From: a bacterium SCSIO 12643
GTDB lineage: Bacteria; Bacteroidota; Bacteroidia; Flavobacteriales_G; Salibacteraceae
Direction: 5' to 3'
Assembly: GCA_024398135.1 (NCBI GenBank)
Contig: CP073750.1
Span: 2,666,001 to 2,730,000, forward strand
Length of the DNA stretch: 64,000 nucleotides
Shown: piece after piece, positions 25,247 through 27,907 of the stretch
Layout: every line of letters starts with the position of its first letter
Numbering within the stretch: the first letter of the stretch is position 1
Made by a program: the position numbers and the translations under genes
The notes under the pieces: model-generated
What the model was told of the DNA's origin: nothing
The model's database searches: none
The model's input: only the letters and a program-made list of their open reading frames with translations

Positions 25247-26070
25247 GGATTAAATAGATTGATCACATAGATGTTTTTCCACATTTTTCCAGTGACATAA
25301 AACTTTTTGCTTTCGGGGTGATATGCAATTCCATTAGTTTCTAACGCCTGATCTCCAATTCGATCTTCTTCTAATTTAAGATCAGTCAAATCAATTTTAG
25401 CCATTACTTTTCCGTTATCCATATCGATTTTAATGACCCAATCGGTTGTGTAAACATTGGCATAAATAAAACCATCCACGTATTCTAATTCATTCAGATA
25501 ATTTACCGGACGACCATTATCAAATACTCTTAAAGTGGCAGTTTTCTCCAATGTGTTCGGGTCTATGAAATGCAAATCAGGGGAGCCGTCACTCATGATC
25601 AGAGATTCCCCATCTGTAGTAAGTCCCCAGCCTTCACGTGTCGGGATTTGGAACGTACGTAATTGTTTACGGGAATTAAAATCATAAACAAATCCTTCAC
25701 GACTTTTGTAGGTGAGCTGATATACTTTATCGTTTAATATGGTAATACCTTCACCAAAGTACTTTTTAGGAAGTTGATTGTGAACGTCAATTTCTCCGGT
25801 ACTAAAATCGACTGATCCGTATACCGAAACTGTTGAAGGTAAATTTTGAGGTGAACCCGTGCTTTCAAATAGTTGATCATTATAAAACAGAAAGCCCTCT
25901 GTAAATGAATTGGTAGAATGCGGTATTTTCTGATCCACAGAATACTTTAAGGTTGGAGTAGGTAGCTTTTTGGGGCGTTTTACCTTTTTACTTTTAGGAG
26001 GTGTAGACTCTCCGCAAGCAGAAAAAACGAATATGGAGCAAACCAAAATTATGGCTGGTAATGATCTCAT
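25243..26070 (-). CDS. Glutaminyl-peptide cyclotransferase, lipoprotein
   Basis: 275 residues from the ATG at 26070, which gives a clean lipoprotein signal (MRSLPAIILVCSIFVFSAC). The upstream-extended frame from 26154 would overlap the riboswitch promoter and is rejected. The body is the five-bladed propeller of the bacterial glutamine cyclotransferase family: HSTNSFTEGFLFYNDQLFESTG, YGEGITILNDKVYQLTYK-like blades, and ETNGIAYHPESKKFYVTGKMW. It converts N-terminal Gln of exported proteins to pyroglutamate. Many T9SS cargo proteins in this phylum carry this modification, so a periplasmic role before secretion is plausible. Confidence 0.92.
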   Translation of the reverse strand: MRSLPAIILVCSIFVFSACGESTPPKSKKVKRPKKLPTPTLKYSVDQKIPHSTNSFTEGFLFYNDQLFESTGSPQNLPSTVSVYGSVDFSTGEIDVHNQLPKKYFGEGITILNDKVYQLTYKSREGFVYDFNSRKQLRTFQIPTREGWGLTTDGESLIMSDGSPDLHFIDPNTLEKTATLRVFDNGRPVNYLNELEYVDGFIYANVYTTDWVIKIDMDNGKVMAKIDLTDLKLEEDRIGDQALETNGIAYHPESKKFYVTGKMWKNIYVINLFNP

Positions 26071-26125: not shown

Positions 26126-26157
26126 TTGAAATGGGATATAAATTTTTCATACATTTG
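26126..26157 (+). promoter_or_regulatory. Promoter of the fluoride riboswitch operon
   Basis: -33 TTG at 26126-26128, then 21 nt, then a perfect -7 TACATTTG at 26150-26157. Transcription would start at about 26163-26165, a few bases before the riboswitch aptamer. Confidence 0.7.
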
Positions 26158-26167
26158 CGTCCAGTTT

Positions 26168-26218
26168 GTGGTAATGATATCTGCCCTAAAGTGCCGAATT
26201 GGCTGATGATGTCTACAG
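26168..26218 (+). promoter_or_regulatory. Fluoride riboswitch (crcB motif)
   Basis: About 51 nt aligning end to end with known fluoride aptamers (Thermotoga, P. syringae). P1 pairs GG (26170-26171) with the CC around 26184-26186. GATAT (26176-26180) pairs with ATGTC (26209-26213), replacing the GGCAT/ATGCC of other species by compensatory change. GCC (26193-26195) pairs with GGC (26201-26203). The diagnostic GGCTGATGATGTCTACAG tail (26201-26218) is present. It senses fluoride and turns on the downstream gene. A small AAGTT/AACTT hairpin follows close to the start codon. Confidence 0.9.
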
Positions 26219-26239
26219 GAAAGTTAAAAACTTAAGTAG

Positions 26240-27541
26240 ATGGCTATGTCAAAAAATACAATTGCTACACCACAGTTCTCCATTCAAAATTTTCAGCATT
26301 ATTCTCTGTTCCTACTCAAGTGGATTCTCATTGCTATTGTAATTGGTTTGCTAACAGGGAGTGGCTCAGCCTGGTTGTTAATGGCTTTGGAATGGGTAGG
26401 TTCATACCGTGATGCGCATATTTGGATTGTTGCGCTATTGCCAATTGGAGGCCTTATCGTTGGACTTTTATATCATTATTACGGAACGGATGTCGTAAAA
26501 GGAAATAACCAAATTATTGAGGAATTTAATAGTCCCAGACAGATTATTCCATTTAAGATGGCGCCATTGGTTTTTATAGGGACGGTGATTACACATTTAT
26601 TTGGTGGTTCTGCAGGTCGAGAGGGGACTGCCGTTCAAGTTGGAGGCGCTATTGCAGATCAATTTACCAAATGGTTTCATCTTCGTGATGATGATAGAAA
26701 GTTGCTGTTGGCAATGGGAGTAAGTGGTGGATTTGCATCTGTATTTGGAACGCCCCTGGCTGGAGCCGTTTTTGCTCTGGAGGTTTTGATTGTAGGAAGG
26801 ATGCGCTATGAGGCTTTGATTCCTAGTTTTCTTACCGCCATAGTTGCGGATTACGCATGTGAGTTATGGCCAGTTCATCATACACATTATCAAATCAGTG
26901 AGGTGCCGGAGATGATTCCTCAAACATTTTTATATGCGATTATAGCAGGAGTGTTTTTTGGACTTACTTCGATTTTGTTTTCCAAGTCGATTCACTTTTT
27001 TAGCGATAATTTTAAACGATTTGTGGTATATCCTCCTTTAAGACCGTTAATTGGAGGAGTGGTACTCGCAGTAATATTTTTAACTTTGGATACTTCAAGG
27101 TTCATGGGGTTGGGAGTTCCCACAATCTCAGCAGCATTTGTAGAACCTCTTCATTCATATGATTTTATTCTAAAATTATTATTTACTGCGTTTACAATAG
27201 GAGCAGGATTTAAAGGAGGAGAGGTAACGCCCTTATTTTTTGTTGGAGCAACGTTAGGAAATGCTTTAATGTGGGTTTTGCCATTGCCTATGTCTTTGTT
27301 GGCGGGAATGGGATTTGTTGCGGTCTTTGCCGGTGCAACAAATACTCCTTTAGCATGTATCTTAATGGGGATTGAGTTATTTGGAATTGAGAGTGGGGTA
27401 TTTGTAGCTATTGCTTGTGTGGTAGCTTATTTGTTTTCCGGACATACCGGAATTTATACTTCACAAATAATAGGAAGTCCAAAGCACAAGAATTTTGAAG
27501 GACAGAAGAAAAAGACAATTAGCGAACTAAATCATAAATAA
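26240..27541 (+). CDS. CLC-F type fluoride/proton antiporter
   Basis: 433 residues, CLC chloride-channel fold. Three features point to the fluoride-specific clade: the anion-site loop that is GSGIP in chloride CLCs is here KGNNQII (87-93, Ser to Asn); the gating-glutamate loop is GREGT (126-130, Glu128) instead of GREGP; and a fluoride riboswitch sits directly upstream. C-terminal anion-site loop: GFKGGEVTPLFFVGATLG. It expels fluoride from the cytoplasm. The start at 26240 or 26246 is uncertain by two residues. The SpoIIAA-like gene begins 9 nt downstream. Confidence 0.93.
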   Translation: MAMSKNTIATPQFSIQNFQHYSLFLLKWILIAIVIGLLTGSGSAWLLMALEWVGSYRDAHIWIVALLPIGGLIVGLLYHYYGTDVVKGNNQIIEEFNSPRQIIPFKMAPLVFIGTVITHLFGGSAGREGTAVQVGGAIADQFTKWFHLRDDDRKLLLAMGVSGGFASVFGTPLAGAVFALEVLIVGRMRYEALIPSFLTAIVADYACELWPVHHTHYQISEVPEMIPQTFLYAIIAGVFFGLTSILFSKSIHFFSDNFKRFVVYPPLRPLIGGVVLAVIFLTLDTSRFMGLGVPTISAAFVEPLHSYDFILKLLFTAFTIGAGFKGGEVTPLFFVGATLGNALMWVLPLPMSLLAGMGFVAVFAGATNTPLACILMGIELFGIESGVFVAIACVVAYLFSGHTGIYTSQIIGSPKHKNFEGQKKKTISELNHK

Positions 27542-27550
27542 CAAACTAAC

Positions 27551-27907
27551 ATGAAAGTATATAACGTAATTGGAAATATCCTGGATATAGAAATTGTATC
27601 GGATACCGTAATGCCAGATGATATTAAGAAAATAGAGTCTGTGATGGAGAAGATGTTGAATCAGTATGATAAGATTTCTATCCGAATCACTTTGGGAAGA
27701 CATTTGGAAATGACGCTTAAAACGCAATTAGAGGTTTTAAAAGCAGGAATCCAAATGCATCAATATATTCATCGTTTAGCAGTAATTGGAGATCGAAATG
27801 TGCTGAAGTTACTTACAGCCGTTGATAACCTGGTGGTACCATGGCAAGAAAAGTATTTCCATATTGATGATTTGGAGCAAGCTGAAATATGGCTGAAGGA
27901 AGATTAG
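27551..27907 (+). CDS. SpoIIAA-like/STAS-domain protein in fluoride operon
   Basis: 118 residues, cytoplasmic, no signal. The alternation of strands and helices and the C-terminal pattern WQEKYFHIDDLEQAEIWLKE fit the SpoIIAA-like (SEC14/STAS-type) family, in which the last helix follows F-(x)n-A-xx-WL. It is 9 nt behind the CLC-F gene with no terminator between, so it should be induced by fluoride too. STAS domains bind small ligands or nucleotides and regulate transporters, so it may control or assist the antiporter; this is inference. Convergent with the Lrp gene. Confidence 0.8.
   Translation: MKVYNVIGNILDIEIVSDTVMPDDIKKIESVMEKMLNQYDKISIRITLGRHLEMTLKTQLEVLKAGIQMHQYIHRLAVIGDRNVLKLLTAVDNLVVPWQEKYFHIDDLEQAEIWLKED

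Follow-up and report, generated by a model that had tools for sequence, protein, structure and literature searches.

A SpoIIAA-like (PF11964) gene behind a riboswitch-controlled fluoride antiporter gene is most probably a one-off neighbour

Is the small SpoIIAA-like gene that follows a fluoride antiporter gene in the bacterium SCSIO 12643 a partner in fluoride resistance, or a neighbour that is transcribed along with it? The question comes from a sequence-only reading of the window (the whole 64,000-nt stretch analysed here), which described a promoter, a fluoride aptamer, a CLC-F antiporter gene and, 9 nts further on, a SpoIIAA-like gene, and which proposed that the product of the last is a STAS-type protein dedicated to fluoride resistance as a partner of the antiporter. 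All of the described parts are present. Our own reading, to which we give a probability of about 0.78, is that the locus is a fluoride-resistance operon of an ordinary and known type, that one neighbour gene in it is unusual, and that this gene, of the PF11964 family, is induced by read-through and is not a conserved partner.

A candidate promoter, matching the Bacteroidota-type pattern TTG-N21-TAnnTTTG, is found at 26126-26157 on the forward strand. Counting both strands, the window has 6 copies of the motif compared to about 6.0 in shuffled sequences, so that only the place of this match directly before the aptamer is informative, and that position is suggestive only. Transcription is expected to start a few bases past the match, ahead of the first aptamer stem. 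A divergent glutamine cyclotransferase gene (PF05096, 25243-26154) has a listed start that overlaps the riboswitch promoter, but its translation more probably begins near 26070, at a start of the lipoprotein type.

The aptamer is at 26161-26222 (forward strand) and is the sole fluoride riboswitch in the window. It belongs to RF01734 both by its covariance-model score, which at 38.5 bits exceeds the gathering score of 34 (E-value 4.2e-7 over the window), and by its pseudoknot. The two stems are 26170-26173/26182-26185 and 26193-26195/26201-26203, and the pseudoknot pairs GAUAU (26176-26180) with AUGUC (26209-26213), including one G.U pair. Rfam gives GGaGU/ACUCC as the consensus for these strands; A-U here replaces two of its G-C pairs, and U.G replaces one A-U pair. 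The change is compensatory, as had been noticed for GATAT/ATGTC from the letters of the DNA.

For the candidate expression platform (26211-26241, forward strand), we propose a likely translational on-switch at the CLC-F start codon. The residues GUCUAC (26211-26216) are complementary to GUAGAU (26236-26241), which spans the start codon, and the GUC of GUCUAC is also part of the 3' strand of the aptamer pseudoknot. In RNA folding, the unconstrained leader leaves the start codon hardly ever unpaired, and enforcing the aptamer partly frees it. An equal complementarity appears in 15% of shuffled start regions, and the pairing of the start codon is not significant (z -0.86). In the proposed mechanism, GUCUAC would pair with GUAGAU when fluoride is absent and hide the CLC-F start codon. 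When the nascent aptamer binds fluoride with Mg2+, the GAUAU/AUGUC pseudoknot would be stabilized; once fixed, it would turn the CLC-F antiporter on, and fluoride would be expelled in exchange for protons.

The antiporter gene (26240-27541, forward strand, 433 aa) matches PF00654 with 268 bits, and its best solved relative is the CLC F-/H+ antiporter 6D0J (E-value 5.5e-69). CLC-F proteins are recognized by the signatures GNNLI/GMGLI, GREGT/V and GEVTP (PMC11139923), and here we find GNNQI, GREGT and GEVTP. Family and signature types together place the protein among the CLC-F antiporters, in agreement with the Asn-containing anion loop and GREGT gate already recognized in the sequence-only reading, and the product is predicted to be an F-/H+ antiporter selective over Cl-. 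The genome has this one CLC-F and a second, distant CLC (26% identical), and a search of the genome finds no CrcB, so the CLC-F is probably the only dedicated fluoride exporter of this genome.

The PF11964 gene (27551-27907, forward strand, 118 aa) starts 9 nts past the CLC-F stop codon on the same strand, with no terminator-like site between the two genes. These three properties make co-transcription likely, and the most likely course is that read-through from CLC-F would transcribe the PF11964 gene and induce it along with the antiporter. It is very improbable that the two genes are not co-expressed, either by an earlier stop of transcription or by a separate promoter for the second gene. 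Two terminator-like patterns near the 3' end of the CLC-F gene (27406-27427 and 27436-27452) would fit an early stop, but they sit inside coding sequence, and the region has three terminator-like sites in total compared to 1.6 (sd 1.2) in shuffles; as for a separate promoter, the 9-nt gap leaves no room for one outside the CLC-F gene. Downstream of the PF11964 gene there is a convergent Lrp/AsnC-type gene.

The product of the small gene belongs to PF11964 with 48.4 bits (cut-off 25; E-value 1.7e-12) over residues 16-116, and no other PF11964 gene is found in this genome. A Pfam scan of the protein reports no STAS family (PF01740), and we do not count it amongst the STAS proteins of the SpoIIAA/RsbV type. 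PF11964 is a family separate from PF01740, with structures (2ook and 2q3l) that have a SpoIIAA-like fold and resemble CRAL-TRIO carriers; membrane association is predicted for its proteins, the majority of which have no SpoIIAA phosphoserine (PMC2954212). The likeness to SpoIIAA and to the STAS tails of SLC26 transporters that had been invoked for this gene is therefore loose.

These comparisons bear on the idea of a STAS phosphoswitch, that is, an anti-anti-sigma-like factor tying fluoride to a partner-switching stress pathway, which we regard as highly unlikely. In an AlphaFold model built without an alignment (mean pLDDT 58.6), strands and helices do follow one another as in STAS domains, and STAS and DUF3478 proteins come first among its fold matches, none with an E-value below 0.001; a single-sequence model of this kind is weak support, and for the order of elements only. 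Against the phosphoswitch, the Pfam match is to PF11964 and not to a STAS family, the small gene has neither a kinase nor a phosphatase gene as a neighbour, and Thr55, without a DSSG motif, stands at the phosphoserine position (Asp66 of 2ook) in a weak alignment (E-value 0.14). For the Shewanella proteins there is also a set of switch residues, reported for close homologues and not required by the Pfam model: Thr30, His31, Tyr34, Trp71, Asp72, Asp73 and Gly77. The window protein has Met, Pro, Ile, Leu, Glu, Val and Gly at these positions, so that only Gly77 is kept, again in a weak alignment (E-value 0.14). The nearest relatives in the class sample (loci L053 and L056) are 28-30% identical and are found amid unrelated genes, and searches of 42 genomes from the order and of plasmids find no close homologue. 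Judging by these residues, we take the small protein to be a divergent PF11964 member, to which the anti-sigma mechanism does not appear transferable, nor does the ligand switch described for the family. Most likely the protein is of a general stress type, soluble or peripheral to the membrane.

A functional partner usually keeps the same neighbourhood across several lineages. We searched a class sample of 395 genomes, and a further sample of 29 CLC-F genomes from a phylum sample plus genome G030; these and the sets described below overlap partly, are samples and not exhaustive sets, and are nearly all Bacteroidota. In the class sample, 55 other genomes have a CLC-F match and 17 of them also carry PF11964; by coordinates the two are adjacent in none of the 17, and the nearest pair on the same contig is 72 kb apart (G061). 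Within the order, CLC-F is found elsewhere only in G030, which has no PF11964. Twelve of the 30 further CLC-F genomes include PF11964, also with no adjacent case, for a result of 0/29 amongst the other genomes with both families. The 80 named CLC-F loci from GTDB, which were found with an alignment query (a scan of contigs with a single CLC-F protein gave none), have no SpoIIAA-like ORF in their flanks (at most 3 kb), whether sought with phmmer or with the family profile. Approached from the riboswitch, 39 class genomes have a fluoride riboswitch over the cut-off, and a PF11964 gene follows it in the present genome and in 0 of the other 38. Approached from CrcB, none of the 59 PF11964 genomes with CrcB over the cut-off has the two adjacent (nearest pair, about 35 kb, in G416). 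The Lrp-type neighbour gene, sought as a marker for the empty site, has no homologue in two genomes of the same genus, and a literature search finds nothing linking STAS or SpoIIAA-like proteins with fluoride genes.

The sequence-only reading had staked the partnership on a conserved linkage of SpoIIAA-like genes to CLC-F, Fluc/crcB or RF01734, and beside none of the three do we find such a gene in another genome sampled; the repeated linkage in several lineages that would mark a conserved fluoride-resistance partner is absent from these samples. A single family member must sit somewhere, and a few chance neighbours are expected across many genomes carrying both families. Since the pair is seen in one lineage only, the one-off adjacency is weak evidence for a partnership. 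The operon proposal survives as a fluoride-riboswitch CLC-F operon with a second gene that is SpoIIAA-like by Pfam, and loses its dedicated STAS-type partner. Most likely, the PF11964 gene arrived behind CLC-F once: a divergent copy would have come to its place in the present lineage by a single rearrangement. We infer that the small protein has no dedicated fluoride role. There are two counterpoints, that the only PF11964 gene of the genome sits in the CLC-F operon, and that a gene induced by fluoride may well serve resistance even if recently recruited.

Small proteins behind CLC-F are a recurring theme, in which the recurrent family is DUF190 (PF02641) and not the SpoIIAA-like one. A DUF190 gene is directly behind CLC-F in loci L066, L068 and L112, two of them over the Pfam cut-off and L068 just under, and L016 has in that place a clear relative of these three proteins, by similarity probably a DUF190 itself. 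Plasmids of Comamonas (L184), Massilia (L212) and Klebsiella (L213) have an annotated DUF190 gene in the same slot, so the arrangement is shared by several Bacteroidota and plasmids from Pseudomonadota. The DUF190 genes overlap CLC-F or start within a few bases of it, and in Comamonas and Massilia crcB comes next. A literature search on DUF190 returned only an unrelated review. Other arrangements were also observed. In L065 (Neptunitalea chrysea), the gene 19 nts behind CLC-F (from about 4246) looks by eye like a CYTH-type (triphosphate tunnel) protein. In G119:C5, G211:C8 and G353:C14, a fluoride riboswitch precedes a CLC-F gene on the same strand by about 2.4 kb, a spacing that suggests that further genes separate the two in longer fluoride operons.

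The DUF190 cases bear on whether the PF11964 protein could be a lineage-specific accessory of CLC-F occupying the DUF190 slot, for example as a peripheral membrane modulator or in membrane protection under HF stress. The 9-nt spacing under a fluoride riboswitch, the recurrence of a small protein in that slot of other CLC-F operons, and the membrane association predicted for PF11964 proteins (PMC2954212) all point this way; the pair, though, is seen in no second lineage, and the presumed ligand or membrane switch residues of the family are mostly replaced (in the weak alignment to the proteins of PMC2954212). We find such an accessory unlikely, and a role of the small protein in fluoride resistance of any kind possible and unsupported. 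If the protein does act with CLC-F, the uncharacterised and widespread family PF11964 would gain a function tied to a defined stress, and fluoride antiporters would be shown to have accessory proteins. As a lead, DUF190, the small protein that recurs directly behind CLC-F, is the more useful one.

The read-through neighbour that we favour can be set beside four known arrangements. In the FRM operon of E. cloacae, ppaC-uspA-eno-gpmA-crcB-orf5249, a riboswitch also drives an exporter together with accessory genes, but the accessories, which are supported by experiments, are UspA and enzymes that fluoride inhibits, and none is described as SpoIIAA-like (PMC5533749). The Shewanella PF11964/DUF3478 proteins (2ook, 2q3l; PMC2954212) share with ours the Pfam family and, in a weak model, the order of strands and helices, whereas ours is without most of the conserved switch-region residues (weak alignment), and their neighbours are a UspA and a TonB receptor gene in place of fluoride genes. 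The pairing of a fluoride riboswitch with CLC-F (eriC-F) is well known (PMC7266159, PMC11139923), and amongst 40 related CLC-F loci scanned, the riboswitch is over threshold in 22. The window conforms to these operons in having RF01734 directly before CLC-F and the same signatures, with GNNQI for GNNLI; it differs in adding a PF11964 gene, seen nowhere else among the loci examined. Finally, the CLC-F - DUF190 (- crcB) operons (L066, L068, L112, L016 and the plasmids) and the window both have, as the next gene after CLC-F, one for a small protein (about 115 aa), from different families: PF02641 in those operons, PF11964 in this one.
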